This document shows, one piece after another, positions 16,122-63,689 of a stretch of DNA of 64,000 bases; position 1 is the stretch's first letter; the number at the start of each line of letters is the position of its first letter. Source of the DNA: Lepidurus packardi (lineage: Eukaryota > Arthropoda > Branchiopoda > Notostraca > Triopsidae); the NCBI GenBank assembly GCA_023053545.1, contig JAKZAN010000005.1, forward strand, positions 6,386,001 through 6,450,000, in the 5' to 3' direction. The notes beneath the pieces were generated by a model that searched no databases, was not told where the DNA came from, and was given only the letters and a program-made list of their open reading frames with translations. A program made the translations under genes and the position numbers.

Positions 16122-19100
16122 ATGTTGAATACCATGAATTTACTTCAACATCCTGCTGCAGCGGACCGGAATCCTTTGCACCATGCTGCAGCCGCAGCCG
16201 CCTCACCTGCAGGTTTGCTGGGTGGATTATCCGCCGCGGGATTTTTTGCAGCTTCCTCCAACGCTGCTGCAGCGGCGGCGGCAGCTTCGACATTTCCCCA
16301 ACGGTCCCCTTTCGCCATCCAAGAATTGCTGGGCCTCAACCATCCTTCTATTTCAAACAACAACGATTCAGTTTCGTCGTCGCCCTTTGTAGCACATTAT
16401 AACCACCATCATCGTCATCACCATGCTGCGGCCGCCGCGTCAATAGCTTCATCTTCCTTGATGCATCTCTCACATCGTTCGAATTCTGTCTCCGCGGCTC
16501 CAAGTAGCAATGGGAGCGGAGGAAATGCTACTAACAGTATCAGCAACGGGACAAGTAGTAATAGTACCTCCACCACACCTTCAAGTATGCGCTTGGAAGA
16601 CCACACCAATACCCTGCCCCATCATCATCACCATCATCACCATCACAGAAATCTGCATTTGCAACAGCAAGCTCAAGCTCTATCAGCTCTAACGGCTGCC
16701 GCCGCAGCTTCCTACGGGGCACCCCGGTCCTACTTAGGTATGTTTTTCAGTATGTGAAACTTCTATTATTTGGTTTAAACTACTCAATACCCTTCTTAAT
16801 TCTAAGCGAGTAAATATTAGCCTATTTAAGACCCTGCTCAAGCACTCTATAGTGTTCGTAAACTATTTGTTCGCCTAATAACCAAATAATGCCAGCAGTC
16901 CACAAATAACCCACAATACTAAACTTTGAAAGCTGTTTTTTTAAATAATTTATAATTGTTAGTTGTATGTAATATAGATATACACAATGATCAAACGACA
17001 CCAAATAGTCGACACAGAAAACAAGGAATTAAAAATTAAATCATACGATTCCACTTAAAAAAATATAATAATAACAGGTTTGTAAGAACTGTAAGCTGAT
17101 CCTGTCAAGCTTCCAAGGTTGTTCGCAAACGTTTAACAGCTCGGGCTTAGAAAACAGGAAAGTTGTGGGCTTTTGCACTGGAATGTGATCTCAATAACGG
17201 TTATTATCAATTGATCCATTATCGTTAGTTTCTTTTAACAAAAACATGCAATCAATGAAAGGTTAAGATAGACGACTATTCATCGTTTGAGGTCTTTTCC
17301 ATTCCGCGCAATAGGAGAGCCCGGAGTGTTTTTAATCGGATAATAAAACCCTAAAAATATGTACAAACTTATTTTTCTAAGTCGAAAATTCTTTCATGAT
17401 TCAATCCTCATTTCATCCTAATAATTGTCGCTGCTAATTTTCGTATTTTCTTAATATCCGACACGGAGATTGTGAGCCTATGCTAATTTGCACATTGGAA
17501 GTAGTAACATTGCGCTAGGTAGGTTCCCAGGATCTTGCCAATTGTACCCTTCGTTTTGAATACAATGACATCACACAACCATTTTGAGCGAGTAAAGCAG
17601 CGATGTAGTTGTCCACCTCCAAGTTTTGGGCCCCAAAGCCATGCTGTTAAACAAGAAAACGGGAAAATGAGTCGTCAACTCACAAAACCTAAAAACGAAT
17701 GTAATTTAGCTCCTTGCAAGCCCCTTTACAAGGCAAACAGTACACATAATTGCTCCTAATTACTATAATTGCGTATTTCTATCACACCATCATTCTTTGC
17801 ACAGGCATGACAAACACAAGTAAAGTGACAAAATCAGGCTATAAGCCCAGTTGGGGGCTGCAACCAAAATTAATAAATTAACTACCAAATAAAGAGCAAC
17901 GCACGTCAAATGTGTCAGAAATACCTAGCGAAGAAAAACTACTTAGTTAAAAATAAAAAAAATAAAGTAAAGAAAAGGAAACAAAACTGTTTGATAGAAA
18001 TTAGCTAATGTGGTTCATATATATTAAACATTAAACTTTTCGTCGATATTAAGTCGTAACTAAACGTTTGTTTGCTAATGAAAATCGTCATTTTTCTTAA
18101 TTAATTTCATTGGATTCGATTTAGGCCATGGTCATGGTGGCAGTCATGCTGGATCACAAGCTCAAGCGCAAGCTGCCGCGTCTTGTTTCGCCGCAGCCGC
18201 TGCGATGGCCGCAGATCCACTTAATCCGGCAGGACGCATGTATTTTAGCCCGGCTTTTTTACACCCTGCTCATCAGCCATCAGCGTTAGGCGTCGGCGGC
18301 GCCGTCACGGCCACGTCTATGGCGTCCGCAGCAGCAGGCGTCTTCGGCCTCGAATCTGCTATGCGAGCTGGAGCCAACGATGTTAACAATACAGGTAAAA
18401 AAAAATCAAATAAAAAAATCTATGACTACAATGCGCTATTCTAAACTATCTGAACTCAAAACCGTTTTTGCGCTGAGCTGAATATCCCCAAAAGTTTAGC
18501 TGTTGTAACCCCGAGTCAAGTTCAGTATAGTGCAACAATCACAGCAATTTGAGCCTGCCGAGCCTTTGTGGCGACCTGTATAGGTCACCTCTGAGGGGAA
18601 AGTTATGGCCTTAACTTCTCGCGAAGGAAAAAGGTGGAGCCGGAAATGCGTTGTCATAACAAGCAAATTTCCCGTACCACGCCACAACAATGTGTTTGTC
18701 ACTTTTAGTATAAGCCTCTTTTATATACATTCACCGTGTACTCATGTCCTGTTTTGTGGGGGTTACGGAAGCAAAAGCGAGGGTGTCCACACGGTCCGAA
18801 AAGAAGAGAGCATATGGGCGGAGCCTGGAGGGTTTTCTGAGTTTTCTTGCCATCAAAAGGAAATACGAAGCCTGTTGCGGACAAAATATTGGGACATCTC
18901 TATTCTAAACCAAATAACTTACACCCCAGGTCTTTAAAAGTTAGCTTTTCAAAGAAAATTTTCAAATTAGGGAGAGCTTTTTCGCATTTCGGGTTCCAGC
19001 ACCTGCGTTTTTCATTCCGCGGCCAGGTCAAGGGGTCACACCGGACGGTAAGTCCGACGACTCCTTTTCAATTGGTTTCAAGCTTAAAATTAAGTGGTTG

Positions 19101-28100: not shown

Positions 28101-29008
28101 GGGGTCGAAGTACCATTATGGCCGAATATGGCCTCTATGGAGCCATGGTTCGCCACTCCCTTCCCTTGCCAGACACGATTGTCAAATCAGCCAAAGAAAA
28201 CGAATGCGTCGCTCCATGGCTGCTAGGTAAGTGACCTGTCTCTAACCTTTCGGCGATAGCCATATCTTTGACCTAACTCCCTCCCTGCCTGCGCAATGTG
28301 ACTCTAAACCCAAATCAAGTGTCAGGCGATGGGATAGAAATATTTAAAATAGACAATCGTTTGTTTCCTGCCGTTGTAGGCATGCATCGGAAGTCCATCG
28401 AAGCCGCTCATCAACTCACCAGTGGTGACGAGAGCAATAAAGACGATGAAGACGAAGATGAAAGCCTTCATCGACAGCAGACGTCTTCGCACCATAAGAT
28501 AGCTCCTTCTTCAGAGCAGCAATCGGCTTCTTCAGCTCCGGTCGAATCCAACAACTCGCCAGATCACTCCCTAACACCCACACTCCGCAGCGCCCCCCTC
28601 AGCACCAGTGCCACCGACGACACCAGTGCCCTTAACCTGTTCAGCTACAGCTTCAACCCCGATATACAACACTTGCAACATCGAGCAGACGATTTCCGAT
28701 CTCACAGTATTGCTGCACTACGAGCCAAAGCGTTAGAACACAACGCTCGACTACATTCCTTGCAGCAAAACGAGAAAGATGGCGATGGCCGTGACAGCGC
28801 CACCTCTTCCGAATCTTCCGTTTATGAATCTACCAAATCTACTCCCAACCAAGTACCGCACTCCCCAGGTCCAACTAGTACTCTCCACGCTCAAGCTTAC
28901 GTTTCACATAAAACACTAACCAGCAACGATTTCACATACAACGCAACACTTTTCAAATCAGAACTGCACCCTAATCTTACCCTTGGCAAACCTGAGCCAT
29001 CCAACTAA
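16122..29008 (+). CDS. Vsx: Visual system homeobox protein, Vsx/Chx10 class (6 exons, 629 aa)
   Basis: Exons are 16122-16737, 18125-18394, 23242-23317, 23396-23519, 28052-28226 and 28380-29008, totalling 1890 nt with phases consistent throughout. In order, the protein has Ala-rich tracts, an octapeptide/eh1-like motif FAIQELLGL (64-72), poly-His tracts (nine His coded near 16619-16645), a Lys/Arg patch, a homeodomain at about 317-376 with Q50 and WFQNRR, then the CVC domain ([17 protein letters not shown] and onward, about 378-433) and an acidic, Ser-rich tail. The homeodomain plus CVC combination identifies a Prd-like CVC gene of the Vsx1/Vsx2 group, a DNA-binding regulator of retinal and visual interneuron fate in animals. 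Introns split the homeodomain after R5 (RHR/TIF) and before V47 (Q/VWFQ). The long introns (1.4, 4.8 and 4.5 kb) contrast with the short introns of the neighbouring genes and may hold enhancers. Confidence 0.95.
16738..18124 (+). other. Vsx intron 1
   Basis: GT (16738) to AG (18124) intron of 1387 bp, AT-rich. I see no coding or RNA gene in it. Confidence 0.8.
18395..23241 (+). other. Vsx intron 2 (4.8 kb)
   Basis: GT-AG intron. It holds GA microsatellites at about 19261-19275 and 21559-21573 and a strong imperfect hairpin at 19681-19796, listed separately. The open frames in it look like noise. No nested gene was recognised. Confidence 0.75.
19681..19796. ncRNA. Imperfect long hairpin (possible pre-miRNA or small foldback)
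   Basis: Two arms of about 44 nt (19681-19724 and 19755-19796) pair with about 8 mismatches or wobbles. They include GCAATATTT/AATATTGC and GCACTC/GAGTGC blocks, and a short extra stem leaves a terminal loop of about 19-28 nt. Stem length, mismatch density and loop size resemble a microRNA precursor. It sits in Vsx intron 2, sense to the gene if read on the plus strand. I do not recognise the arms as a known miRNA. A degenerate foldback transposon is an equal alternative. Confidence 0.35.
23520..28051 (+). other. Vsx intron 4 (4.5 kb, inside the homeodomain)
   Basis: GT-AG intron interrupting the homeodomain between Q46 and V47, a position often seen in Prd-like genes. It contains a G-rich tract (26514-26541, listed separately). 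Overlapping open frames on both strands near 25690-26110 have no recognisable similarity. Confidence 0.75.
26514..26541 (+). repeat. G-rich tract, G-quadruplex capable
   Basis: A nearly pure G tract on the plus strand holds a 13-G run (26519-26531 area) flanked by GGGG, GGG and GGG groups. It satisfies the four-G-run rule for a quadruplex on the transcribed Vsx sense strand in intron 4. Confidence 0.6.
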
Positions 29009-38449: not shown

Positions 38450-41389
38450 TTATACAACGATATTTAACATTCTGGCATGAATCTGACGTTCGTAGGCTGC
38501 GAGGAAATGCAGACATTTTTTCACAAAACCCATTCCGGACAACTTAGGATCGGGCTCCCATTTGTCAACCAGAGCTTTCGCTTCCTCATCTGCTTCTGGA
38601 ACGATAGCAGAACAATTGAGTGACAAATGGTCATTATTTAAACTAATGAAGTTAGAATATTGCTGCAGAATAGATTTTAAGTCTTCTTCCTTGGGTTCGA
38701 TTAAGCTGTCATCGGTGTTACTTCGTTTTTTCCTCCCAAAGAAAGGTAACGCCATAGCTACCGTAGGTAGCATACTTAGCCCCAAAGCCATTAACGTATT
38801 TCTTCCGCTATTCCTGTTGCCGGAAATATTGGGAAGAACCGTGGCTTTTGCAACGGGAGTCCTTTTGGTGGTTGTAGGGGCTCTAGAGGAGGGTACGCTA
38901 AAGATACTGGACGGAGAAGCTGCTGGGAAGGCGTCAAGGAAGAAATCCGGCAAAACCGCCTCCAGATGCGGACTTCCGAATCCCACGACTGGCAACGAAG
39001 GTTTATATGACGTATTATTGTTACTAGGTACAAAATGCGGGCCTTTCTTATTGCCGTTCTGACCATGCTGTCCTGGTTTATTTTTCTTAGGGTCTGTGTT
39101 CGTGACCTTGATCACACCTTCGTAGTTATGGTTACCTACACCTCCGTACAAACGTGTTGTATGCGCTTCTGGTCGAGGCGTCCAGAACGTGGGGAGCCAA
39201 GGACGGTACGTAGTAGTGGTATAGGGACGATGTGTACTTTGGTAGTACGCAGCAGAAGTTGGTTTTTGAGTCAGTGAGCTTAGCAACTGAGGGTTCTTGT
39301 AGGTCAGCATTTCTAGGACTTCCGGTGGAGCGTCGGACACGTGCATTGTGTCGCCATCTGTGAGATCCATACCTTGGAACATGGAAATGGGTACTTTCTG
39401 CTGACCCATGAGTGTCAATTGCCCTCCAATGTAATTCCAAATGTTCACAATGACGTAAGGTCTGTCATCATTGTTTGCATTCGGTTTGTGCGGGAAAGAA
39501 GGCCCTCGGGCAGGTTTTGTATCGATTAAGTACACTAAAGTAGGAGGTGTGGTTGTTAGAGGTTTGACAGTAGACGCCAACGGGGGTTTCTTGTAATAAT
39601 TGTACAGTGGGTTAAGGGGCGTCGCCGGCTTTTGGAGATTTTCCATATAAAGGTCGTGCTCCATAACTTGGATACTCGTCTGAGGTCGTTCGTGGTACTT
39701 TTGCCTTGGAGGTAATTTTGCAATAGGGGTGATAGTTGTGGTAGTGGTACTAAAGTACTGGGGAGGGCGTGGATATCGAGCTGGGAATTTGGGTTTGGCC
39801 GCTAAAGGTGCAAGAGTCTTAGACGTGGTAGTAGAGTCGGGGTAGTCGTTGTAGTCTTCGAAAGGTGGTTGAGGGGATGGACTATCGCCATAGTCGTAGG
39901 GATTGTCGTCCAAGTCAGAGTTGGCAGGATTTTGGAATTGGTACCCTGGCTTGGGTACCCACCAGAGGTTCCCACCGTCTGCCACATCATTGCCCATAAC
40001 GGTCTTTTGCTTAGAAACTTCAGTAATAGAAGACGTTCGCTTTCTGTCCAAGGGACTAGCGTACGTAGCAGTAGTGATCGTCTTGTCAGGCGTGTACATG
40101 GGTTTACTTGAAGCGGGTACGGAGGTTACGTATTTCGTCGAAGATGAAGCTGCTGCTGTTCCGGATTCTATCCAGTAATCTATTTGGGAAGTTGTGGTTT
40201 GTTGCGCCGCTGCAGTCGGGAAGACAATTGATCGGCTAGTAGTCATGTACGTGGACCCGTAGTCTGTCTTGGGTTTGGTGGCGAGTAAAGTTGGCGTTGG
40301 CGTGGTTGTAGGGGGAGTCTTAGTCTCGTACTTAGTCCAGTCTTCAAATTGGGTACTTTTGGCTGGCGGCGTTGTCGTACGCCAAGTGGTGCGAGTTACA
40401 GTGTCATGTTTAGTCCAGGGATCCTTTTCTAAAATGGTAGTATGTAGCGGTGACGCTGACGTCATGGGTACAGTTATATTCTTGGACCAATAATTCGTTC
40501 CTGGCTGTACAATGGTGGAACTAGTCTTGTAGGAGCTGGTAGAGTAGTATTGATATGGAGCGATGGTATGGGCGGGGGTCGTCTTAATGGGCAAGTTGTT
40601 AAACTCTGCAGCGGGTGTGGTCGTTGATTTAGCTTTACTGACCCCGTAACCGTTACTTGCTTTAACCCAGTGAACGGTGGTTTCGCTGGGTGTACTGGCT
40701 AGCCCTGTGACCCGCTTTTCTGCTTTTATTCCGCTAACAGGTGGATCACGGGATTGTAGGGGTTTCCAGATCGACGCCACAGGTAAGGGCGTGGGCCAGC
40801 TTAAGGTAGTACTTTCGGGAACATGGGTCGTGGTCTGCCAAACGGGCGCCGGAGGGCGTTTTCTTAACCAGGGGCGTTTGGCAGAAGTACTGTTATGGGG
40901 CTCGATTATTAGTCGTGTGATGTTTGTATTCCCGATCGTTTGCACAAAGTAAGAAGAACCAGGAACTTCTTTGATCTTGACTGATCTTTGCGGTATTCCG
41001 TCATCTATTATCTTTGGTCTGGGTACCCTTTCAACTATGGCCATTCCGCCAGAAATCAAATTCCCTTGCTTGGGTGAAATAGTCTTAAAATCCCCTTTAT
41101 TATTTTGGCTCGATGTCTCCGGGAAGTCTTCCGATATTACAGGGAAGATCTTGTGCTGGTCAGGGAAGGTATCGTCGCCATAGTTTTCATAATCTGCTGT
41201 AACTGATTGCGAAACTTCGGTTGCGGAAACTTCGGGGTTAGGAAGACTCGAGTTTTGCGTCACTAAATACTCCAAGAAGTCACTAAGGTCCCAAACTTGA
41301 TCTTGTGAGTCGGAACTAGAAGATAAATCCAGTGTGCTCATTAAAACGCTAATTAGCACCACACTAATAATCTCCTTGATTCGTTTCAT
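38450..41389 (-). CDS. Large Thr/Pro/Ser-rich secreted mucin-like protein with C-terminal hydrophobic-plus-furin-site module (979 aa)
   Basis: A single open frame with its ATG at 41387-41389 begins with a signal peptide (KRIKEIISVVLISVLMST, then Ser-rich). Most of the protein is low-complexity Thr, Pro, Ser, Tyr and Trp sequence with many TTT/TTP runs, as expected for an O-glycosylated extracellular protein. Near the C-terminus a hydrophobic segment (about 865-884) is followed by RKKR-S (886-890), a consensus furin site. An 89-residue tail with two Cys follows. The frame also extends upstream of 41389 without another clear ATG and signal. I do not recognise a known family. The neighbouring genes (42197-44156 and 44908-48843) share the same signal, low-complexity, hydrophobic and polybasic plan, which argues for a related cluster. 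Long antisense open frames inside it are a codon-bias effect. Confidence 0.75.
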   Translation of the reverse strand: MKRIKEIISVVLISVLMSTLDLSSSSDSQDQVWDLSDFLEYLVTQNSSLPNPEVSATEVSQSVTADYENYGDDTFPDQHKIFPVISEDFPETSSQNNKGDFKTISPKQGNLISGGMAIVERVPRPKIIDDGIPQRSVKIKEVPGSSYFVQTIGNTNITRLIIEPHNSTSAKRPWLRKRPPAPVWQTTTHVPESTTLSWPTPLPVASIWKPLQSRDPPVSGIKAEKRVTGLASTPSETTVHWVKASNGYGVSKAKSTTTPAAEFNNLPIKTTPAHTIAPYQYYSTSSYKTSSTIVQPGTNYWSKNITVPMTSASPLHTTILEKDPWTKHDTVTRTTWRTTTPPAKSTQFEDWTKYETKTPPTTTPTPTLLATKPKTDYGSTYMTTSRSIVFPTAAAQQTTTSQIDYWIESGTAAASSSTKYVTSVPASSKPMYTPDKTITTATYASPLDRKRTSSITEVSKQKTVMGNDVADGGNLWWVPKPGYQFQNPANSDLDDNPYDYGDSPSPQPPFEDYNDYPDSTTTSKTLAPLAAKPKFPARYPRPPQYFSTTTTTITPIAKLPPRQKYHERPQTSIQVMEHDLYMENLQKPATPLNPLYNYYKKPPLASTVKPLTTTPPTLVYLIDTKPARGPSFPHKPNANNDDRPYVIVNIWNYIGGQLTLMGQQKVPISMFQGMDLTDGDTMHVSDAPPEVLEMLTYKNPQLLSSLTQKPTSAAYYQSTHRPYTTTTYRPWLPTFWTPRPEAHTTRLYGGVGNHNYEGVIKVTNTDPKKNKPGQHGQNGNKKGPHFVPSNNNTSYKPSLPVVGFGSPHLEAVLPDFFLDAFPAASPSSIFSVPSSRAPTTTKRTPVAKATVLPNISGNRNSGRNTLMALGLSMLPTVAMALPFFGRKKRSNTDDSLIEPKEEDLKSILQQYSNFISLNNDHLSLNCSAIVPEADEEAKALVDKWEPDPKLSGMGFVKKCLHFLAAYERQIHARMLNIVV

Positions 41390-42196
41390 TGTCTCGGTTT
41401 TCCACTTCTCACAAAATTCTTCAGAAAAACAAATTATTATTAATTTCGACTTGTGGTTTGGTGTGGTTGTCAAACATTGTACCACAAGTCTGGTTTTTTA
41501 CACTAATGGAGACTAAAATTAGCGTTAATTAGGGTAGGTTTCAGAACCACAAGTATTTTTTAAATCCGAAACCCTCTCTTGACGTCTAGAGTAGTAGACT
41601 GATCGTCTGTCCACTAGCTGTATAACTGGCTTTTTCCACCTGGTTCGTTTAACTTTAAAAAGGGACGAACGAAAAAGGACGTCGTATAACGTAACGCTTT
41701 GTTGACTGTTCTGGCCCGGGTACCAAGTCAGTTGCGCGACCACTTTGCCGTGAAGTGACCGGGCGCAGTAGCTACCTTAGTATAACATAAGAAAAAAAGA
41801 AGACTAAAGAATGGCAGGCCATCGAACTTCCAAGTGCTTGTCGACCAATTTTCAGAAGTAACGGACAACCAGATGCTATTAGGCACTTTGTTAACTTTTC
41901 CACAATGTGACAGCGTCATTGCCCATGACTTTCCAACGGCGTGAAACCGTGTGTTAGCAAGACGCGACAAAAGACACCACTCCTAATGTGGTTATGTGGG
42001 AATCATTCCCAGACCCTTGCAGTGAACTTAACGGTGCTTTGCGAGTTCAGAATTCAAGTTGTATTAAAACATACTTTTAATCTCTATTTACATGCTCTTT
42101 GTTTTATTTACTATCCCACCGTTTATCCAGCAGGCAATTTGTCAAACTAAATGTTCAGTTTTGAAGAAGAAGAAAGGCAAGACATGAAACGTCTTT
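41390..42196. other. Intergenic region in the mucin-like cluster
   Basis: This 0.8-kb stretch should hold the promoter of the downstream gene (38450-41389) and the 3' UTR of the upstream gene (42197-44156). I see no coding sequence and no clear TATA element. Confidence 0.5.
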
Positions 42197-44156
42197 TCAA
42201 GTGGCTAGTTTCTGACATCTTGTAGAAGAGAATGTTTCGTCTTCAATTAGACAGCTGAGGATTGAGGCAATGTCTTCCCAGGCTAATACCTGGTTGAGTT
42301 GACTTCCTACTCTTCGAATGAACGGTGAACTGCGCTTGAGACGACCTGGAGTGCTTAGGTCCGAGAAGGTCACAATTAGATAAAAAGGGATTACCATGGC
42401 TATGGGGGCCAGGACTAATTGAGAAACGCCTAAAGCGGCCAGGAAAGCAGTTATCATAGGGATTCCAACCATTATAGTGAGAAAGAGTTGTTGTTTAGCC
42501 TCCGGAGTTTGTTCTCGGAGGGCTCGAAAGAGGGTACCGAGTATCCCGGCCTTTTCTTCAAGAGAATTGAACGATAACATTAGACCTTTGTCGACAGGGT
42601 CGCTCTTGTCCATAATCTGGGGTAACAGAATTTTCTTGGGAGGAGATTCAGTTTGATAGTGGTCGTAGTGGCTTGGGGTTACGGGAGCGAGGTAATAAGG
42701 GTAGACGGGGTGATAGTACGGGTGCGGGGAGTACCATGTGCGGTTCCTTACAATGAATATGTCGTCAGGGATCTGTACTGCTGGGCGAAAAGGCTCATTT
42801 TCATTTATAGGTCTTTTTGTACTGGGGATTGGTGGTATCCGAATTGTAGTTGTATCTTTAGTTCTTGTTTCGGAGGGTACCTGGCCTCCTAAGCCTGCTG
42901 GAGATAACATAGAATTGCTGTCGGTAGTTAGCAGCGTGGCGAGTATTTGAGCGGACAGTTCAGCTGTGGTTTGCTTATCTGATTGATGTGATAACTTGTG
43001 CAAGATGATTGCCACGTTCTGGACTGCATTGGTGAGTTCTTGAAGTTCCGGAGTTAGTGTTACATGGTCCTGGTTGTAAACAGCATTATGATTCGATTCT
43101 GCAACTGGAAAGGGCAGTTTGGGGTGGTATCCGTAAACCTCGTCATTTCGATCGGCTACGGTGACATCATCCGGATGAGAACTAGATGGCGTTTGGAATG
43201 CATCGTGGTCTTCTAAAACGTATGTAAAGATGGCGTTAGAGTCGCTTACTAAGTTCAAATCGGTCATAAAATTAAAACGGTTTATGGATTGTTTGTTTTT
43301 GAGCTTAGAGAAGTGCATTATATATGTTAAGTTACGCCAGGGGGTTACCTGTTGGCATCTGACCTACGTCAGAGCTGGCTAGGTCAGGGGGGAGAAAGCA
43401 GGGAAAGAAAGGTAGTCGAGTACAGAGAGTTGAGCGAGAGCAAGCGAGAGAGTAGCAGTAGCAGAGTTGAAAGTAGCAGAGCCGTAGTTAAGCAAGTGAT
43501 ATTTAGATCCATATTATTCCAATCAAAAGTGTACGAGTGTTACGGGTTTTGTACACTAAATACAAGGAATATTCTGTCATTAACATATATATACAGCAAG
43601 TATATAGGCTTCTAAATTATCGAATCACATAGACTTGATGTTACTTACGAACTATTTGCTTTGATTTAATAAAAGATAGCTTACGAATGATCTGCGGAAG
43701 TGCTAGAGGGCATTGACTGGTCGAAGAATGGAGAAAAAGCCATTCTAGTGGGTGTATCGCGATTTTACTACTCATAGGTTTGCTTTCAATTAAGGGAGTT
43801 AATGCTTGGGTAGTAATTGAAGCAGAAGATGACACGAAGGACGTAATCGCACCTTTGATAGCCCTGGACGACTGAGTAAATCTGTCGAACATGTCTTTAG
43901 TTCCAGTTGATGTTGTTGACTCCAGATGCAAATCAGACCTTTCGACCAAAGTAGACAGGCCTAACGAATGTGACAATACAGATTGCTGTGACGGCGAATC
44001 TGCTAATAAAGGGTCAATTTGCAGTTTTTCATAAACGGGTCCATTCCTGGGGGATTGCGCCTCCCGGAAATGAATACTTGCTGGTAATGTTTCGGGTAAG
44101 TATACCAAGATGCGAAATACCACAGCAAAGTGAAATAATTTTAAGAAATTTGGCAT
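42197..44156 (-). CDS. Secreted/membrane protein of the mucin-like cluster (2 exons, 507 aa, proposed model)
   Basis: Exon 1 is 44156-43649 and carries an ATG and a signal peptide (LFHFAVVFRILVYLPETLPA). Exon 2 is 43212-42197. The donor reads C|GTAAGT and the acceptor TTTTAG|AA. The join is in phase and gives 1524 nt. An alternative donor at 43685 (C|GTAAGC) has the same phase and would remove 12 residues. If exon 2 were a separate gene starting at the ATG at 43318 it would lack a signal peptide, so I prefer the joined model. The C-terminal part has a long hydrophobic region (about 410-452, possibly two helices), then RLKR-S (460-464) and a 43-residue tail with two Cys. The EDIASIL stretch in the tail resembles EDLKSIL in the tail of the 38450-41389 gene. 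I recognise no known function. Confidence 0.6.
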
Positions 44157-44907
44157 CTCGAATGCATCTTTACCATGTATCTATACACCAGCTTAAAGTG
44201 TCACTTAAAAACAATAACAGCAAAGGATCGTGTAAATGGTAACTAGTAGCACAGTAAATCCTGGTTTAATCCAGGTCTTCATTTGTAGAGTGTCCAACTG
44301 TTTTCACGTGTACTGCCAGCCTGGTAAACTTTCCAACTAGCAAATACAGTTTTGTTCAGGTTAGAAAGTTTGTAGTAGGTGGTTTCCAGACAACTGCGCA
44401 TTGCGGTTATTTGACTTTTAACGACCGAAAATTTTTATTTCCGAACATCTTCGCTTTCAAATGATTTTTTTGCTTGGCTGCCAAGTAACACGCCCCTAAC
44501 GGCAGCCTGGCTTAAGCATTGCTTCACGCTCAAGTACCATCACTTCCTCTTTCTTTCCTTGCTGCTTGCTTCCCATTGAAGGTTTTGACAAGTCACTTTT
44601 TTATGCTTCGCTTACGATCAAGCTGTAATTTCTGACCTGCTTTATATTAAATAGCAAAACTAAAAGTAGATATTTAAAAAAGGATGTATCCGGTTCCAAA
44701 TTCACGAGTTTCACTGAAAAAGTTTGCGTAACTATCAGCTAGTAAGATACTAGGTCAATGGAGGAATAAATATATCAATTCATATATTCTGTGGAAAATA
44801 AGATCAGAATTACCGGAACGTTTCCTCCCGCTTCCCGTAAATACAACGATTGAAAAGCTGATATGTACACGATCAATTAGAAATAAGTTAAGTGTTAAGC
44901 GAAAAGT
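44157..44907. other. Intergenic region in the mucin-like cluster
   Basis: This 0.75-kb stretch lies between two minus-strand genes. No coding sequence was seen. It should contain the promoter of the 42197-44156 gene and the 3' end of the 44908-48843 gene. Confidence 0.5.
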
Positions 44908-47900
44908 CTAGTGTCGAGGCTTCCAGCGGTTCATTTGGCGCTGACGTCTATCGTAAAGTTTGTAGTACACGGGCTCCTTCTCATAATCAGTATCGGGGTT
45001 TTGATAGTAATTGGCGAAATTGTACTGATTAGACCCGGCCCAGTCATTGTCGTAGGACCCCGCGGAGTACCCATTCTTCTTTTTGTACGCTTGCGAGTTA
45101 CGGCGGCGCTTCTTGCTGAGTAAAAAGGGTAGCCAGAAGGGTGCTAGGGCAGCAGCGCCGTAGGCCACTGCCGCCACTGCGAACCCTGTGGCGGGGAGCG
45201 CCGCGTTACTTAAAGTAGTATACAGTGAAGGCGCGGAAGAGGAAGAGGAGGAGGAGGAAGAACCGGCATTAATGGAGATGGAGGCACCAACGGGATATAT
45301 ACTGGCTACTTGGGATTGCGCGGGGTTATTGGCTTGGAAGTTGAGAATATTAGCCAAGGGTGAAATGGATAGTGTCAGGGGAGAGGGAGTTTGCTCAGCT
45401 AAGAATCCAACGAAGGTTCCGCTACCCGAAGCGGTCGCTTGAGTGTTGGCTTCCACAACAATTGCGCTGAGATCAGGCTTCTTTTGATTATTGAAAGCAC
45501 TAAGCCCTGGGATAATAAATTGTGGGGCGATAGTAGAGGTCGCTGCTTCTACCACGGTCTGAGAGCTTGCTGAGCTAGACGGTGCTTCTTCTGCTAGAAC
45601 CGCTTCAAATTGGGGGACAAATTCATCGAGATTGGTAGGCTTATTATAGGTAGGTTGGGTCCCCACGTCGTTTTCGAACGAATAGTCTTCATTTTGTAAG
45701 TAAAGGTACTCAACACTGTCTCCGCCAGTATTAGGTTCGAGATTGAAAGAGAAATTGGGTCTGGTGTTGAAACTATCGAAAGGAACATCAATGGTATCGG
45801 TCGCGGAGTTCACTAAATGTAAACCGCTGCCACTGAGAGTTGTGCTATACGGGGGGGAAGTTAAAGGAGGTTTGTAGGTAGTTACAGGTTTGTCGATTGT
45901 TGTACTCTTGTCAGCAGTCGTAGGTTTGTCGGTCGTTGTACTTCTGGCTGTAGTTGTAGGTTTGGCGGTTGTTGTTCTGTTGTCGGTTGTCATAGGTTTG
46001 TCAGTAGTCGTAGGTTTGTCAGTAGTCAAAGGTTGGTCAGTAGTTATAGGTTTGCTGGTAGTTTTAGGTATATCGGTTGAGCTTGAACCTATGTCATTCT
46101 CAGAGCTCTGACCCTGTGAGATTTGGTTCAGCAAGTCGTAATAACTGGAATATAAAGTCGAGTTCTCGGCAAGGTCTACCGGTGTTGTACTCATAGGTAT
46201 GTCGGTCGTAGTGGCGCTGTGGGTGTACTTCAGGGTCAGCAAACTGGCTGAAGAAGGGAACAGTGGCGTGGCTGGTCGAGTTTGCTGACTACTGGGTGGG
46301 ATTGGAGTACTATCGGCCCTGTAGATTATGTTTGAAAGCTGTTGGTTGGCCTGCAGCACATCGGACACCAAGGAGGAGCCGGTCAGCGTTCCTAGAGCAG
46401 CTCCGCCAGTGACAGGCATGGAAGTACTCATACTAGTGGTACTACTAGGCGAAGTCGAAGGCCTAATTGTTGTTCTAGTAGTGGGAATATTCCGTAAAGT
46501 CGTACTTGAAGGCGCGGGGCTTGAAGTACTGGGAGAAGTGGACAGAAGAGCCGAAGTTGATGTTGAAATGGTAGAGAACTCTACGCCAGAGACTACAGTA
46601 GCCGGATCTGGGACAGCAGAATAAGAAGACCCGGTGCCCACCCACTGTGGAGCTGGTGTTGTGTACCTGTTAGTCAAGTTAGTCCGGATGGGGAGGGGGC
46701 TAAAGAAGTTTTGGATCGTAATCAAACTTGACGACGGACGGGGTGTTGAGCCAGTCTGCATAGGGTTAAAGGAACTGCTTGAGTTGCGCTGTAAGAAATA
46801 TATGTTAACCTGTCCAGGATTAGTTAAGTCAGTACTGTATGGCGTCGTAGTCGGAAGAGGGCGACGGGAGCTCGAAGGTCGAGTTCTGGTCGTTTTGGGA
46901 GGCAAGGTATTGGGGATTTCATTGGGATTGATAGAATATTTATCGGGCACGGGCTTACGGGTAACTGGAGGGTCCGTATACAGAACATACGGTCGTGTCC
47001 AAGGTTCTTCTGTGGTCGATTCTAGTGTTGTTATAAGCGGGTTATCTTTGCGAATTGGTGGAGAAAAGTTGCTTATCGTGTTGACATTATTAACGGAAAA
47101 GGTGGTTCGGATGATGGAGTTTGCGATGAAGGGCTTAACAGTATAGTTTTCGATGGGGCTGTTAGTAAGTGCGCTGGAAAATGTTTGTCTCAAAAATGGG
47201 AACGCGGTTACAGGTTCTGCGGCAAATACTGTGTCCGTTGTTATGACTGGCCGACTTGAGCTAGTGGTTAGGGTTGATTCGCCAGTTTGAGGAGAGGTAG
47301 TAGTGCCACTATTCGCGGCACTTAACAAGGCTGAACCGATCGGTTGCCCTACTGCTGCTGGAAACGAGGCAGGCGTAACGGAGCTATTGAGGGCGACAGA
47401 AGGCGTGTTGAGAACGAACACCTCGTTTTCCAAATCGGAAGAGCCATCCACAAATTTACTTAAAGTCGATTGCACGAAACTGGCTACCAAATCCAGGTCG
47501 CCAGAATTTGACACGGGAAGAACGTGGAATGAATTGGATGACGACTTGGTAGTCGACTTTAAGTTAGAATTTTCGACAACAAAATTACCGCCTGCTGGTC
47601 TAGTATTGAAAACGGAATCAAAATCGTTAGTCGTTGACTTTTCGCTGAAACCTACAGTCGTCCTGCCAGTAAACTGCTCCGGGATCGACTCTGGTACAAA
47701 CGGGCTGCTAGGTCGAGAAGTAGTAGTAGTAGGAGACGTAGTTGTGGTAAAAGTCGAAGATGTAGTAGTTCTAGTAGAAGACGAAGCCGAAGGAAGGGGT
47801 CTTACAGTGAACCGTTGAGGTCGCCCTGTAAGGAACTGCGTATTGTTTGCATTCGGTGCTCGCCACTCGTTGAGTCGATCGTTGAGTTGCTGTCTGGTTC

Positions 47901-48843
47901 CGCTAGAGTATTTCTGACCTGACAGTAATGCCAACCACGGATTGGCGTCGCTCGATGCTGCGTTCTGAGGCGAGCGACCTGTTGCTTCAAACAAGGGTAC
48001 GTTGGGAACCATCTTTTGGATCGAGTCCGAGAAATACTCACCCGTTTCTTCCGTCGAACGTTTTCTCCGGCGACCCGCTAAAGCCAATAAAGCTGGTATC
48101 CATTGTGGTCCGTACATGAAAGCAGCTCCGATAGTCGGGATAGCAGAGAAACTAATCGCTTTCATTGCATTGGACATGGTTCTTTTGGTAGTAGTGATGG
48201 GCAGTTCTGAGGTTGCGGTAGTTACCCCGCTGCCAGGATCGACCGTCGTGGGGATTGCGGTCCGCTTCAACGGTGCCGTGGAGGTAATAACAGATTCTTG
48301 GGACGGTGCCGTGGTGGCTTGGAACAGGTTGTGCGGTGTATCTTCAGGGTTTTTGGTGTTTGAGTTCAAGTTCGGAAGAGAGTACTGTCCATTGAGACTA
48401 CCATCATAATAACTGTGGAAAATGCTAACGTCACCGACAGCATCTGACGCATCTGCTGCTAACTTGCTTGGTCTAGACGGAGTACGATTGATGATCCCCA
48501 AGCTACCCGTCATGTGAATCGTGTGCTGTTTTTCATGGTCCGGAGAGTTAATCAAGTGGATCACCATTTTCTTTCGTCCAGGACCCACGTTCCCATTTTC
48601 CATCGCTGATGCATGATCTTGATCTGACTTATCACGGTAATTGGGTACAGTAATGTCTTCCGTTTTGTCCCTATTTGGGATGTCCTCGATTGGTAAGGGG
48701 TAGACTAAAGATGGTAAGAATAATTGCAACAAATTAGAAAACAAAACGACAAAAGAAAATAAGAAACTGATAGTAGGTGAAGTGACACAAAAGCTTTAAA
48801 ATCCCCTAAAACCAGGTTAATTTTACTTTAAAATCATCTCCAT
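44908..48843 (-). CDS. Giant Ser/Thr-rich mucin-like protein with two hydrophobic-plus-polybasic segments (2 exons, 1291 aa)
   Basis: The main exon is 48766-44908. Its open frame lacks a good ATG at the start, and TTTCTTATTTTC at its start is preceded by a convincing acceptor (CTACTATCAG). A 17-nt first exon (48843-48827, ATG) with donor AA|GTAAAA joins in phase across a 60-bp intron, giving MEMILN followed by a hydrophobic signal sequence. A second possible first exon (ATGGCCAA|GTAACA) lies further upstream. The body is Ser/Thr/Pro-rich with a ten-copy hexapeptide TTDKPx array. A hydrophobic segment (about 209-237) ends in RRRKR-S (238-243), and a second near the C-terminus (about 1195-1222) ends in KKRRR, followed by a 63-residue Tyr/Asn/Arg-rich tail. 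The two segments match the plan of the neighbouring genes. The family is unrecognised; a glycosylated extracellular or matrix role is inferred from composition. Confidence 0.7.
45867..46049 (-). repeat. 18-bp coding minisatellite (hexapeptide TTDKPx, about 10 copies)
   Basis: Within the 1291-aa mucin-like gene, consecutive hexapeptides of the form TTDKPT, TTDKPM, TTAKPT, TTDKPT and TIDKPV follow each other for about 183 bp. The copies are diverged but in register. This is a typical mucin PTS repeat and a candidate for length polymorphism. Confidence 0.8.
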
Positions 48844-49059
48844 ATTTGTATACAAACGTATACCTTAATAAAAACAAACGCCAACGACTTTCACCAAATT
48901 ACGCATGTTACTTGGCCATTAATGTCAGCTCAGAAGGCAGTTGTACTCGCAAACGTTGCTGTCGTACAAAATCACTGCATACATTGTTAGAAATACTTGT
49001 CTTATTAACAGATTTATATTTTCCAGATGAAAGACTTTTTTGAAATGCATATATTGAAG

Positions 49060-49407
49060 TTATAATTTGCGGGGTTTTTGTGTCATATCAACCGCTCGAG
49101 AATGCATAATAGTGTTACTTAGAGCGAGACTGGGCCGTAACGGCCCGTTCGACGGCGCTGAGTTGTCGTGTCGGTACCTAGCTTCTTGGCTATGCTCGGT
49201 TTGCATTACCAAACTCCCTGAACCTTCAACTTCGCCGTTACCTTTAAGTAAGCAAACAAGTAAAGTCAAACACCGTAAGTGTGTCACGTTCCATCCTTTA
49301 ATCCTTTTAATCGTACCTATTGTCTGCTCACTGGTAAACGGTGCAGCATGATTGAGGTTAATAGTTCCACATAGCAGCCATATCATCGCTCCAATAGCGA
49401 ACCGCAT
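49060..49407 (-). CDS. Small secreted protein (2 exons, 90 aa), unrecognised
   Basis: Exon 1 is 49407-49317 and exon 2 is 49241-49060. The intron is 75 bp with a G|GTACGA donor and a TTACTTAAAG acceptor. The 5' end codes a clear signal peptide (MRFAIGAMIWLLCGTINLNHAA) with likely cleavage after HAA. The mature part of about 65 residues is hydrophilic and has no Cys. I do not recognise the family; a peptide precursor or a small matrix protein are both possible. The intron length is a multiple of three and contains no in-frame stop, so the unspliced RNA would code a 115-aa variant. The gene lies just upstream of the mucin-like cluster, on the same strand. Confidence 0.55.
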   Translation of the reverse strand: MRFAIGAMIWLLCGTINLNHAAPFTSEQTIGTIKRIKGWNVTHLRCLTLLVCLLKGNGEVEGSGSLVMQTEHSQEARYRHDNSAPSNGPLRPSLALSNTIMHSRAVDMTQKPRKL

Positions 49408-52424: not shown

Positions 52425-54920
52425 AGGAAATTAAATAATAATAACGAGTTCAAGTAAAATAGTTGGTGTACTAAAACAACGAGAGAGCTGCGAACTGCAA
52501 CTGATTAACAAATTGGTCATGCCAAATCGTGGAGCCAATTCTCATAGCATGAGTGAATATTGAATACGTCTTTTTTAGACTTAAAATACTTTTTATTGTT
52601 CACTAAATATTAACCATCCGTACCCATAAGCCAACAAGTATACGTGAAAAAAAAATGCATTGAGTTTTTGGCCAAATTTTTACTTTGTTTTAAATGGGGT
52701 GAAAGTAGGGGGGGGGGGGAATCTGGCTAATTAATTGTTTATTTGTACTACTTGCTCACCAACCAACTTGCGAGGGAAAACCGGGTCAGGAAAACCGCTA
52801 CAAAATTCTTTCACGATTTTGCGTAGGGAAGTGTGTATACATCAGATCCGTTTTGAATAGGGATTGCTCACCAGGGTTTGTAGATGAAGGAAACGGAAGG
52901 AAACTGTAGTTTTACTGCATTGTGGGCATAGCCACTGCAGCTTTGGTATGAGTTACGTCACTTTCGCGCCAAGCTTGAGTGACAGTTTTTAGCTGGGTGT
53001 AGAAATTGATGCCAGCTTTGCCATAAAAGTTGGTGTCCCCCAAAAACGAACCACGGGATCCCGTAAAGGAAAACATGGGCAATGGGACAGGGATGGGAAC
53101 ATTAATTCCGACCTAATTTGCACACCAAAAGGAGACGATTTATTAGCATAAAAAACGAAAACTAGAAAGCATGAAAATTTCTGGCAGAACAAATTAACTA
53201 CCTGTCCTACGTCAGCTTCTTGGGTGAATTTGCGAGCAGTAGCGCCGTTTGTGGTAAAAATAGCTGTGCCGTTTCCGTATTGATTAGCGTTGATTACTTG
53301 GATAGCTTCATCCAAGGTGTTGACTGACAAAATGACCAAAACTGGGCCGAAGATTTCCTCTTGGTAACACGTCATTTTAGGCTAGAAATTAACGTTTAAT
53401 TAGAGAAAAGTCTACAAATTGGATAAAATTGCTCAGTTACTGTGACATTCGCCAGAATAGTCGGACCCACGAAATTGCCGTTTTCATATTTGGGAACTTG
53501 AACGTTACGTCCATCGAGAAGGCATTTGGCACCTTGGTCAATTCCGGATTGAATCAAATCGCAGATCCGTTGTTTAGCTTCAGGGGAAATCACTGGACAG
53601 ATGTCCGTATCAGGCTCGTGTCCTAGGGACAGAGAACAGGTTTAATTATAATTCAGTTATTGATCGGTAAATTTTTATTGTATTTATTTTTACCTGCGCT
53701 CACTTTCAGTTTCTGGGCTCTGGCAACTAATTCGGGGATCCATTGATTGGCTTCGCCTACGAAAACAGCTGTGCTAAGAGCCATACATCTTTGCCCCGCG
53801 GCGCCAAAAGCGGCGCCCACTAATTGGTTTAAAGTGTTTTCCTTATTAGCATCAGGCATAATAACTCCATGGTTCTTTGCTCCCATATTGGACTGTACCC
53901 GCTTTCCACTTTTGGCTCCCCTTTCATAGATGTGTTTACCCTATTAAAAAATGAAAATATTATTTTGATTTAAATCTAGTTTCAATTGAGTTAGGAAGGA
54001 ATCTGCTCTGATTTTTTCTTAACAAGGAATTGATTTTCACAAAAGAAGACTTACAGCGCGGTCAGAGCCTACGAAGGAAATCGCTCTGATGTCGGGATGA
54101 TCGCAAATGAAATTGACCGAATCCTGTTGGCCGTGAATAACATTCACTACGCCATCCGGAACACCTGCTTCGCGTAGCATATCCACTAGCATCATGCAAG
54201 CACCAGGATCCCTTTCGGAGGGTTTCATGATAAAGGTATTGCCACAAACGATAGCCATAGGATACATCTAAAAAAAACATTGTTTATGTATTTTGTAATG
54301 CTTTTGTTTGTGCTTTTTTATTATTAATTTATTCTAGAATGTGTAGGAAAAGACATGAAAGCTGGCACTTACCCAAAGCGGGATCATAGCAGGGAAATTA
54401 AAAGGCGCTATTCCAGCGCACACACCTAAGGGAAGGCGGTAGGAGAACAAATCCATATCTTTGGCTATGTTCGGTAAACTTTCTCCCAAGGTTAGGCTTG
54501 TTACACTGCAGGCATGCTCAACCACCTCTAGAATAGTAATCTTCGTTAACTGTAATCGGCTCTAACTCCCAGTAGATGAATTTCAATTACGCAAGCCGCG
54601 AAGAACGTCCCCTTCGGCGTCGACCAAAGTTTTGCCTTGTTCTAATGTAATATTCTTTGCTATTTCTTTCTAAGATGCATCGTATAATAGAGAAGGAAAA
54701 TACTATGTTAGGTTTTATAGATACCATGTTGTTTCTGATGATGTGCTGGTATTTAAACATGACTTGCTGCCTGGTCAGTACAGATGTTTTGGACCAAGTT
54801 TTGTACGCTTCCTTTGCAGATGCCACAGCAGCTTCCATTTCCCCTTGAGTCGATTTGGGTACGCGTGTTACTACCTTTTGGCATGAAAGTAAAAATATTA
54901 TATGCATCAATACATTCTAG
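52425..54920 (-). repeat. Segmental duplication, copy 1 (ALDH6A1 exons 3-10 plus 3' flank)
   Basis: This block matches 61145-63655 through exons, introns and about 490 bp of 3' flank, in the same orientation. Exons are very similar, while introns and the 3' flank carry indels and substitutions. Homology fades about 30-45 bp upstream of the exon 3 acceptor. This copy continues into exons 1 and 2; the other does not. Confidence 0.85.
52738..52743 (-). promoter_or_regulatory. Candidate poly(A) signal of ALDH6A1 copy 1
   Basis: AATAAA on the minus strand, about 170 nt beyond the stop codon at 52912. Confidence 0.3.
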
Positions 54921-57555: not shown

Positions 57556-59536
57556 TCACTGTACAAATTTTTGATTGCATCGCAAAAACATCAGATTTTC
57601 GAACACATCGGGAACAATTCTTGCTCGGTCAGGTCGCAGAATCTTACCCCCATAACTAAAGATTCGCTCTACTGGAGCTGAAGTTGCAGGGGTATGTAAG
57701 TGGTTAGATGCCAACTTCGCAAGCTTCGGAAACCTATTATTATGAGTTTTCCAAAAGCTGAATACATCAGAAGTTTTGGAGATACAAGGTTCAGATAAGT
57801 ACGCCTCGAGTTCGCTCGAAACAGGAATGGATAGGACTGAACACTGTGGATTTGTAAATAGGAGGCTATCGAGTTCAGACGAGTTCGTTTCTTCCAAACG
57901 AGGACGTTTAGAAGGTGGCGAATTCGTACGTTTTTCGACATGCACTGCAAGTTTCCCGACTATAGACTTACGAATGCTTTCCGCCTCTTCGCTGTTAATG
58001 CACCAACTACCTAACTTGAATCTAGGGTCAAGCGCTGTCGAGATTTTAAAGTAATCAAGCTTCTCATACAGGGAGAGTCTGCTGTCTACAGATGATTTGA
58101 GAACAGATAAGATTCTAGAGCAATGCAAGGCATCGAAAGCACCTAAAAACCGTTGCAAAGCTCTAACGAAAGGTAAAGCATAGCTAATGGTTGGGCAAGA
58201 GTCTGACTGAATTAAATCGGTTACTTCTTCGAATATTTTAAACAACTGAATGAACTCGTTTAAAAAATTTCGGTCGTCCAATGTAAGCCTGTTGTTCGGG
58301 ACACATTTATCGAGGTCTTTTGGATTTATCTTGAGAACTGACCGAATAGCCTTAATTTGGGAATTCCAACGCGTGCAGTTAAAGGACTGTGGGGTAAGTC
58401 TCAGTGCATGCAGGGCCTCACTGGTAGACAAGGATTGCTTGCTACGTCTGATGATGTTTGAGATTTTTAGAAAGACAGCTTGAAAATTTACACAACCCTT
58501 CAACCCGTCCCTGACTACCAATTGCAATGTATGGGCGAAACATCTAAGATGAACAATCTCAGAAGGTAGCTCACCGTCCATGTCGGCTGCAAAACTCTCC
58601 CGACTAAAAAAGTTAGTTAGCTCATCCTCCTGCTCTTCTTCCCGTTCAGAAAATTCTTGTAAGTCCTGATCATTCTCGACTAATTCCTGTACAGGCAACT
58701 GAACAGAAAAAGCCTTGACCATATTGGTAGCGTTGTCAGTTACAATAAAGGCTATATCTGATAAAGCTAACCCAAAAGAACTTAACAACAATTCCAGTTC
58801 GGAAATAATATTGGCTGCTGTATGCCTTACTGGGAAATGCTTGCAAGCTAAAGTGAAACTTTGTAACTTCCAATCTTTTAAAAAATGGCCTGTTACCCCT
58901 AAAAACCCTTGCATTTTGGGACTACTCCATAAATCCAAGGTTAAGCTAATTGGGGATGATCTTGAGTCCAGCAGATGTTTAATATTTTCCATTGCGAAAT
59001 TGACGTAATCGGGGATGATGTTGTGAGTTAGAGACTTCCGACTTGGCAGTTCAAACTTCGGGTCAAGAGCGGAAACAAAATCTCGAAAGTGCTCGTCGTC
59101 CGTGAGACTTAGTGGCAACATCTTCGAAGTGAGTAAAACTATGAGCTTCATCAACAGGGACTTCGCCCGAGTGCTTTTCGCCGGGTAAGAAACAGTAGCA
59201 TCACGCGCGGAGTTCGCGGGCAAAAAAAAAGTGGAGATATCCAAGGTGTCCGTGTTTGATGAAGTGGTGGGTTGCTGCTTTCCAGCGGAATACTCGCAGT
59301 GCTGAATAGGGTGCCTACGCTATTACAAATAGGAAGTTCTAGTCTCACGACTCACGCATGAAACACGTAATCAAATTATCTTACCTTGAGGTGTCTGACT
59401 TCGAGGGAAAGTTCGAAGTCGCTTTACGTAACGCAGTATGAACTGTGTTGCAGATGTTGCAGGTCACTTTAAAAGATTCGTCAGAAAAAGAATGGCCCTT
59501 TGCGAGGGAAAAATACTTATAAATAGTGGACTCCAT
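57556..59536 (-). CDS. hAT transposase with BED zinc finger (2 exons, 636 aa)
   Basis: Exon 1 is 59536-59385 and exon 2 is 59314-57556, with a GTAAGA donor, a GCGTAG acceptor and a 70-bp intron. The total is 1911 nt. A BED zinc finger is seen as C26-x2-C29 and H52-x3-H56, created across the splice junction. The RNase H-like domain shows the expected acidic residues at D178 (LDLWSS), D244 (VTDNATN) and E600 (APVERIFS), and the CFAHTLQL motif of the hAT insertion domain. The C-terminal dimerisation region (SFWKTHNNRFPKLAKLA and onward) is present. It would bind the element ends and catalyse cut-and-paste transposition. All the parts look intact, so it may be active. An alternative AG six bases upstream of the chosen acceptor breaks the frame. 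Confidence 0.9.
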
Positions 59537-61508: not shown

Positions 61509-61663
61509 AACCAACTTGCGAGGGAAAATTGGGTGACGAAATTTGCCACAAAATTCTTTCACGATTTTGCGTTGGGGAAGTGTGTATACAGCATGAGATC
61601 TGTTTTGAATAGGGATTGCTCACCATGGTTTGTAGATGAAGGAAAAGGAAGGAAACTGTAGTT

Positions 61664-63619
61664 TTACTGCATTGTAGGCATGGCCACTGCAGCTTTGGTA
61701 TGAGTTACGTCACTTTCGCGCCAAGCTTGAGTGACAGTCTTTAGCTGGGTGTAGAAATTGATGCCAGCTTTGCCATTAAAGTTGGTGTCCCCCAAAAACG
61801 AACCACGGGATCCCGTAAAGGAGAACATGGGCAATGGAACAGGGATGGGAACATTAATTCCGACCTAATTTGCACACCAAAAGGAGAAGATTTATTAGCA
61901 TAAAAAACGAAAACTAGAAAGCATGAAAATTTCTGGCAGAACAAATTACTTACCATTCCTACGTCAGCTTCTTGGGTGAATTTGCGAGCAGTAGCGCCGT
62001 TTGTGGTAAAAATAGCTGTGCCGTTTCCGTATTGATTAGCGTTGATTACTTGGATAGCTTCATCCAAGGTGTTGACTGACAAAATGAGCAAAACTGGGCC
62101 AAAGATTTCCTCTTGGTAACACGTCATTTTAGGCTAGAAATTAACGTTTAATTAGAGAAAAGTCTACAAATTGGACAAAATTGCTCAGAGTTACTGTGAC
62201 ATTTGCCAAAATAGTCGGACCCACGAAATTGCCGTTTTCATATTTGGGAACTTGAATGTTACGTCCATCGAGAAGGCATTTGGCACCTTGGTCAATTCCA
62301 GATTGAATCAAATCGCAGATCCGTTGTTTAGCTTCAGGGGAAATCACTGGACAGATGTCCGTATCAGACTCGTGTCCTAGAGACAGAGAACGGGTTGGTT
62401 TAATTTTAATTTTGTTTAGTGATCTGTAATTTCTTTTATTTGATTTATTTTTTACCTGCGCCCACTTTCAACTTCTGGGCTCTGGCAACTAATTCGGGGA
62501 TCCATTGATTGGCTTCGCCTACGAAAACAGCTGTGGTAAGGGCCATACATTTCTGCCCAGCGCTACCAAAAGCGGCGCCCACTAACTGCTTTAAAGTGTT
62601 TTCCTTATTAGCATCAGGCATAATAACTCCATGGTTCTTTGCTCCTATATTGGCTTGCACCCGCTTTCCATTCTTGGCTCCCCTTTCATAAATGTGCTTG
62701 CCCTATTAAAAAAAATCCATTTTCATTTAAGTTCTGAAATGAATGTGCTCCTATTTTTTGTTAACAAAGGATTGATTTTCACAGAAGACGACTTACAGGG
62801 CGGTCAGATCCTACGAAGGAAATCGCTCTGATGTCGGGATGATCGCAAATGAAATTGGCTGCATCGCGTTCGCCGTGAATAACATTCACTACGCCAGCCG
62901 GAACACCTGCTTCTTCTAGCAAATCCACTAGCATCATGCAAGCACCAGGATCTCTTTTAGAGGTTTTCAGGACAAAGGTATTGCCACAAACGATAGCAAT
63001 AGGAAACATCTAAAAAAAATCATAGTTCATGTATTTTGTTATGCTAGCTTTTGCACTACTTTTCGTTATTCATTTATTATCGGTTGTCTAGAAAAAAAGC
63101 GCGAAAGCACTTACCCAAAGCGGGATCATAGCAGGGAAATTAAAAGGCACTATTCCAGCGCACACACCTAAGGGAAGGCGGTAGGAGAACAAATCCATAT
63201 CTTTGGCTATGTTCGGTAAACTTTCTCCCATGGTTAGGCTTGTTACACTGCAGGCATGCTCAACCAGCTCTAGAATAGTAATCTTCGTTAACCATAATCG
63301 GCTCTAACTCCCAATAGATGAATTTTAATTACGCAAGCCGCGAAGAACCTCCCATTCGGCGTCGACCAAAGTTTTGCCTTGCTCTAATGTAATACTCTTA
63401 ACTATTTCTTTCTAAAAAAGCAGAGCTAGACTAGAGAAGGAAAATACTACATTTAGGTTTTATAGATACCATGCTGTTTCTGATGATGTGCTGGTATTTA
63501 AACATGACTTGCTGCCTGGTCAGTACAGACGCTTTGGACCAGGTTTTGAACGCTTCCTTTGCAGAAGCCACAGCAGCTTCCATTTCCCCTTGGGTTGACT
63601 TCGGCACGCGTGTTACTAC
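61664..63619 (-). CDS. ALDH6A1-like second copy, exons 3-10 only (5' end missing in window)
   Basis: Exons are 63619-63470, 63411-63333, 63269-63115, 63009-62797, 62702-62456, 62376-62195, 62133-61954 and 61864-61664. Each has exactly the length of its copy 1 counterpart and every splice site is kept, so the frame is open through all eight exons. Exons 1 and 2 (presequence and first residues) are not seen before the window ends. The catalytic Cys (GQKCM) and Asn (PFNFP) remain, but the cofactor-site KPSER of copy 1 is KTSKR here, and the usually invariant Q in DVGQ is M. It may be a 5'-truncated pseudogene that decays slowly, a gene with a new first exon beyond 64000, or a source of hybrid transcripts with copy 1. 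Confidence 0.75.
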
Positions 63620-63689
63620 CTTTTGGGATGAAAGTCAAAATATTCTATGTATCTTTAGCACAGTCCTACATTCTGTTTTTTTTTTTTCA

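Follow-up and report, generated by a model that had tools for sequence, protein, structure and literature searches.

Do three neighbouring genes of the notostracan Lepidurus packardi share a protein module in which a hydrophobic segment runs directly into a basic site, and what could such a module be for? The question was raised by a first-pass annotation of a 64,000-nucleotide stretch of DNA (the window; positions 6386001-6450000 of the 13.5 Mb contig JAKZAN010000005.1, in the 108.6 Mb, 344-contig assembly GCA_023053545.1), which described three consecutive minus-strand genes for large mucin-like proteins, each with a signal peptide and hydrophobic segments that end at a polybasic site. On the minus strand, open frames that measure 1015, 388 and 1295 codons from stop to stop, together with a 179-codon frame upstream of the 388-codon one, appear to represent three adjacent genes, here called A, B and C, and bear out the proposed arrangement. 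Taken as a whole, what the annotation observed was partly confirmed and its interpretation partly supported: the cluster appears to encode secreted or membrane-bound orphan proteins, for which a common hydrophobic-plus-basic module is supported in part, rather than three mucins, and no common tail was found. The overall design of the three proteins is ordinary.

When the three spliced models were scanned for either RX(R/K)R or four basic residues, A and B each had one basic cluster and C had two (an internal one, C1, and a terminal one, C2). All four start directly behind a hydrophobic window (19-residue Kyte-Doolittle (KD) mean of at least 1.2), as had been claimed, and the zone behind such windows makes up 1.5% of A, 8.9% of B and 3.0% of C. 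The cut-off of 1.2 was chosen with the C1 segment's value of 1.28 already known, and a stricter cut-off misses C1. The modules are located as follows.

38723..38794, minus strand, gene A module: LMALGLSMLPTVAMALPFF-G-RKKR, then S
42332..42487, minus strand, gene B module: two hydrophobic segments, then DLSTPG-RLKR, then S
48058..48156, minus strand, gene C internal module C1: ISFSAIPTIGAAFMYGPQWIPALLALA-G-RRRKR, then S
45100..45204, minus strand, gene C terminal module C2: AALPATGFAVAAVAYGAAALAPFWLPFLL-S-KKRRR, then N

With the stricter cut-off, ten hydrophobic-plus-basic combinations were found in frames of at least 60 amino acids across the window and 80 kb of flanking sequence; three are in genes A, B and C, and seven are in frames of 61 to 113 amino acids. 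Six frames reach at least 300 amino acids (1295, 1015, 587 and 388 in the window, 1459 and 399 in the flanks), and among these the combination occurs only in the frames of A, B and C.

Evidence that the modules are related comes from shuffle tests. Plain shuffles of the modules with their tails, which ignore that both partners carry a hydrophobic stretch, reached the observed score in 0 of 2000 cases for A-B, 1 for C1-C2, 6 for A-C1, 207 for B-C2, 474 for A-C2 and 1003 for B-C1. Shuffles within segments, which preserve segment composition, reached the score of the upstream part and core in 6 (A-B), 14 (A-C1) and 29 (C1-C2) of 5000 cases; once the basic and downstream parts were added, the counts were 38 (A-B), 181 (A-C1), 30 (C1-C2), 2111 (A-C2), 2752 (B-C1) and 1889 (B-C2). 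These results suggest a shared hydrophobic module for three pairs (A-B, A-C1 and C1-C2) and give no evidence for the other three, and this evidence is considered moderate because six core pairs were tested and the segment borders were set by the analyst. Several further results weigh against a common module: within-segment shuffles of the upstream part and core reached the score in 4444 (A-C2), 3585 (B-C1) and 1427 (B-C2) of 5000 cases, and the C1 module, when searched against the genome at E<=10, retrieved neither C2 nor A. The likeness among the modules thus appears to lie at the edge of detection. Since the C1 search missed C2 and A, distant members elsewhere in the genome would also have escaped, and the search argues only against close copies.

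All four cores match the pattern [LI]P[TAM]x[AGT]...[LI]P[FA][FYL], with two Pro in the core of A and three each in those of B, C1 and C2. Shuffles of the respective cores matched it in 8, 20, 15 and 44 of 20000 cases. In a six-frame reading of 303,846 residues (the window, eight flank loci that with the window make up 144 kb, and five short search loci), the pattern followed by a basic run was found in four places, all in A, B and C; it was derived from the same four cores and is therefore descriptive, not an independent test.

The tails behind the terminal modules are a different matter.

38453..38722, minus strand, gene A tail, 90 amino acids, Cys 926 and 959
42200..42331, minus strand, gene B tail, 44 amino acids, Cys 478 and 490
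44911..45099, minus strand, gene C tail, 63 amino acids, Tyr/Asn-rich by eye, without Cys

The two Cys reported for each of two tails are present; they are both Cys of A and two of the three of B, which fits an extracellular disulphide. Alignment of the tails found no similarity above chance: the A-B score was reached by 384 of 2000 shuffles and those of the other five pairs by 567 to 1865. The ED(L/I)xSIL stretch, which had been put forward as a similarity between tails, is this A-B match and was rejected as chance. In single-sequence AlphaFold predictions, the tail of A had a mean predicted local distance difference test score (pLDDT) of 50.0 and a second model one of 54.8; both were helical, of low confidence and judged too poor as queries for a fold search. 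The annotation had named a lack of tail alignment beyond composition as an outcome that would refute it; this is what was seen for the tails, while the hydrophobic module is moderately supported as shared.

Genes without a common origin, in which neighbouring secreted, disordered orphans converged in composition and mix membrane and convertase features, would account for tails that do not align, for the three of six core pairs without likeness and for the lack of a Pfam or NCBIfam family joining them. However, three core pairs beat shuffles that keep segment composition, and the genes are adjacent, lie on the same strand and have the proline pattern in common, although this pattern was drawn post hoc. 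Convergence of this kind appears unlikely.

What the module might do depends on how the basic sites are read, which are GRKKR-S (A), GRLKR-S (B), GRRRKR-S (C1) and SKKRRR-N (C2). Three of the four match RX(K/R)R-S, with Gly ahead of the basic run, Arg at P4 and P1, and Ser at P1'; Arg at P4 and P1 is the established rule for furin-type convertase sites. Moreover, C1 is separated from the next module by about 950 Thr/Ser/Pro-rich residues with nine N-glycosylation sequons, which would be expected outside the cell. Because of the three matching sites and this sequon-bearing stretch, cutting by a convertase right behind the hydrophobic segment is plausible. The favoured explanation, held tentatively and with a little less than even confidence, is that the three genes encode precursors of extracellular or matrix proteins, which a furin-like convertase cuts so that each released body ends in a hydrophobic patch. 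From the sequence we infer secretory-pathway precursors with copies, possibly of common descent, of one proline-containing hydrophobic segment that runs into a strongly basic site. A furin-like proprotein convertase of the secretory pathway would cut behind this site, at GRKKR/S in A, at GRLKR/S in B, and in C at GRRRKR/S and perhaps at KKRRR/N. The fragment on the N-terminal side of each cut would then end in the hydrophobic segment, by which an extracellular, probably epithelial-surface, glycoprotein coat could be anchored or assembled; the tails that A and B carry behind the site, each with a Cys pair, may be released or remain attached.

In ordinary membrane proteins, however, basic residues that follow a hydrophobic segment commonly act as the stop-transfer signal, and it is quite possible that A, B and C are type I membrane glycoproteins in which the segment is a membrane helix, the basic cluster a cytosolic stop-transfer signal and the tail a short cytosolic domain; they would then be unremarkable orphan membrane glycoproteins. 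A and C2 fit this plan well, since in both the hydrophobic stretch lies near the C-terminus and is followed at once by the basic cluster and a short tail, and their KD means over 19 residues (1.83 for A and 1.69 for the terminal module of C) suit membrane helices. Insertion sums, which are good for ranking only, were +6.56 for C1, +3.21 for C2, +2.89 for A and -0.81 for the first segment of B, which makes the latter a fair membrane helix and, like the stop-transfer signal, counts against convertase cutting. Hydropathy permits a membrane span for A, B and C2, while Pro and the insertion sum speak against one for C1 and less so for A and C2; with two Pro within its best 19 residues, C1 looks like a poor membrane helix. 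A type I topology would also place the long sequon-bearing part of C behind C1 in the cytosol, would return the site of B to the outside if both of its hydrophobic segments spanned the membrane, would require two or three Pro per core, which is unusual in membrane helices, and would leave the tail Cys and the P1' Ser at three sites unexplained. Treated as a single type, the four modules are explained more economically by lumenal convertase sites.

In A and C1 a Gly immediately precedes an uninterrupted basic run, which could also be read as a signal for amidation plus cleavage, and the 44-residue, two-Cys tail after RLKR in B could be an active peptide, which would make these proteins precursors of a peptide-hormone-like kind. 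Against this, the bodies are very large, each protein has just one or two sites, no family match was found, and the hydrophobic ends are unlike any amidated peptides known to us, so that such precursors seem very improbable here.

Starting again from convertase cutting, a more far-reaching proposal, which we consider improbable, is that the modules are a portable cassette of a proline-bearing hydrophobic patch and a convertase site. The hydrophobic C-terminus, possibly amidated in A and C1, would drive assembly or anchoring of the coat, in a lineage-restricted cluster in which divergence has left bodies and tails unrecognisable as related. If the favoured explanation is right, it would add a simple rule for fast-evolving matrix proteins, in which a short cassette that is cut to expose a hydrophobic end remains recognisable although the rest of the protein, body and tail, turns over; orphan matrix genes could then be sorted by cassette instead of by their low-complexity bodies.

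The gene models on which these readings are based are as follows.

38450..41389, minus strand, gene A coding region and stop, single exon, 979 amino acids (open frame; the start ATG at 41389 is the analyst's choice)
43685..44156, minus strand, gene B exon 1, signal-peptide-like start MPNFLKLFHFAVVFRILVYLPETLPAS (179-codon open frame; donor GTAAGC from 43684; predicted splice)
42197..43212, minus strand, gene B exon 2 and stop (acceptor before 43212; an alternative before 43248 is also in frame)
49317..49407, minus strand, gene C exon 1, signal-peptide-like start MRFAIGAMIWLLCGTINLNHAAPF (beyond the interval originally annotated; predicted splice)
44908..48704, minus strand, gene C exon 2 and stop
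45868..46054, minus strand, short repeat array of the Thr-Thr-Asp-Lys-Pro type within gene C, with periods of 18, 36 and 72 bases

Gene A has a signal-peptide-like start, a Thr/Ser/Pro-rich body, the hydrophobic module and the tail. With the acceptor before 43212, gene B spans 42197-44156 in two exons and encodes 495 amino acids, and gene C spans 44908-49407 in two exons and encodes 1295 amino acids with ten N-glycosylation sequons; both splices are predicted from sequence alone, and for exon 1 of C a donor from 49241 (exon to 49242) would also be in frame. Thr, Ser and Pro make up 32% of A and 37% of C, compared to 27% of B, which with 495 residues is neither large nor mucin-like as had been described. 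All three models have signal-peptide-like starts, judged from hydropathy and by eye, although the start originally chosen for C, at 48795, is not among them. Because a long pyrimidine tract ending in TTTAG precedes 48704, and the upstream exon 49407-49317 joins 48704 in frame, the hydrophobic start at 48795 is most likely the pyrimidine tract of an intron and not a signal peptide.

Searches for relatives found no family to which the three proteins could be assigned. The four stop-to-stop frames matched no Pfam family at E<=1, and the four module/tail queries at E<=10 gave one chance-level match (TPR_TTI1_C, E 0.17). Among specific candidates, these same Pfam searches of frames and module/tail queries found neither a ZP domain before the furin site nor a match to the model of the Osiris family (DUF1676). 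The four frames also had no Pfam match to the Cys-rich chitin-binding domains of peritrophic-matrix mucins, and the total numbers of Cys are 2 in A, 3 in B and 1 in C. NCBIfam, which is built for prokaryotes, gave no family, and sequences in PDB gave no usable match (best E 0.92 for the module and tail of A, 0.48 for those of B, none for C2). Family and structure searches are weak for short hydrophobic segments of this kind, and no arthropod protein collection was among those searched.

Same-genome searches at E<=10 with the module-plus-tail parts of A, B and C2, the C1 module, the middle of A and the N-terminal part of C found the own place of each query and no close second copy; the queries omitted the N-terminal part of B and the bodies of A and C, except for a 501-base DNA piece of gene A, which matched itself only. 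Five additional rows (E 0.0166 with two internal stops; 0.568 and 1; 0.287 and 1.39) were judged to be chance after the loci were read. A DNA pattern for P-F-x-G-R-x-x-R was found at 8 places in the genome, compared to 7 for a reversed control, and gene A was the only place in a frame of more than 150 codons (the next longest frame had 124). One of eight scans of viral contigs, with the A frame as query, confirmed no relative, and Rfam and tRNA scans of the window gave no match. None of the titles and opening lines of abstracts that were listed names a module of this kind for arthropods, although one may nonetheless have been published. One paper, in the excerpts available (PMC3886914), merely applied a furin-site predictor and has no bearing here.

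Elsewhere in the window, a direct duplication about 8.75 kb apart (52840-54908 and 61592-63653) consists of six blocks with 89-97% identity and has an aldehyde dehydrogenase exon in each copy; a 587-codon minus-strand frame between the two (57559-59319) carries the dimerisation region of a hAT transposase (Pfam E 5.5e-17). A plus-strand frame at 28277-29005 has an OAR motif (Pfam E 8.2e-08) and probably belongs to a paired-like homeobox gene, two frames rich in Ala are at 16122-16754 and 18082-18441, and a minus-strand frame at 3725-4168 has a JmjC_2 domain (E 1.3e-29), presumably of the ribosomal-oxygenase type. On the same contig, two long frames that are rich in Thr and Pro and contain internal repeats lie at 3974277-3977558; the start of the shorter one bears Cys and by eye resembles a chitin-binding domain.

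Type I transmembrane mucins have a signal peptide, a Thr/Ser/Pro-rich ectodomain, a hydrophobic segment and basic residues. A, B and C resemble them in overall plan, but C differs by its second, internal hydrophobic-plus-basic module, and the Pro-containing segments differ too. Among proteins of external matrices, C. elegans DPY-6 is similar in being a large mucin-like secreted pre-cuticle protein with a Cys-bearing C-terminal domain and a role as matrix scaffold, although the available excerpts mention furin for the collagens and not for DPY-6 (PMC13225626). The Drosophila ZP-domain matrix proteins Piopio and Qsm are described, in the excerpts available, as apical matrix precursors with a probable furin site near the transmembrane segment, similar to what is predicted here (PMC12456955), but they differ by the ZP domain, none of which was found in A, B and C. 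In the furrow collagens of C. elegans, according to the same excerpts as for DPY-6, a transmembrane segment is followed at once by a furin site, a change of RXXR to AXXA blocks secretion, and the convertase BLI-4 is partly required for collagens such as DPY-7 and DPY-8 (PMC13225626), which provides an experimentally tested precedent for the release of matrix proteins by a cut right behind a membrane segment. These collagens differ in that they have collagen bodies, carry the site close to the N-terminus and are type II proteins, an orientation that does not favour the reading proposed here, whereas A, B and C have a predicted signal peptide, Thr/Ser/Pro bodies (A and C) and a module that is C-terminal or internal. 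DPY-7 and DPY-8 are nevertheless external-matrix proteins in which, as proposed for the modules of A, B and C, a membrane segment and an immediate RXXR furin site stand together.

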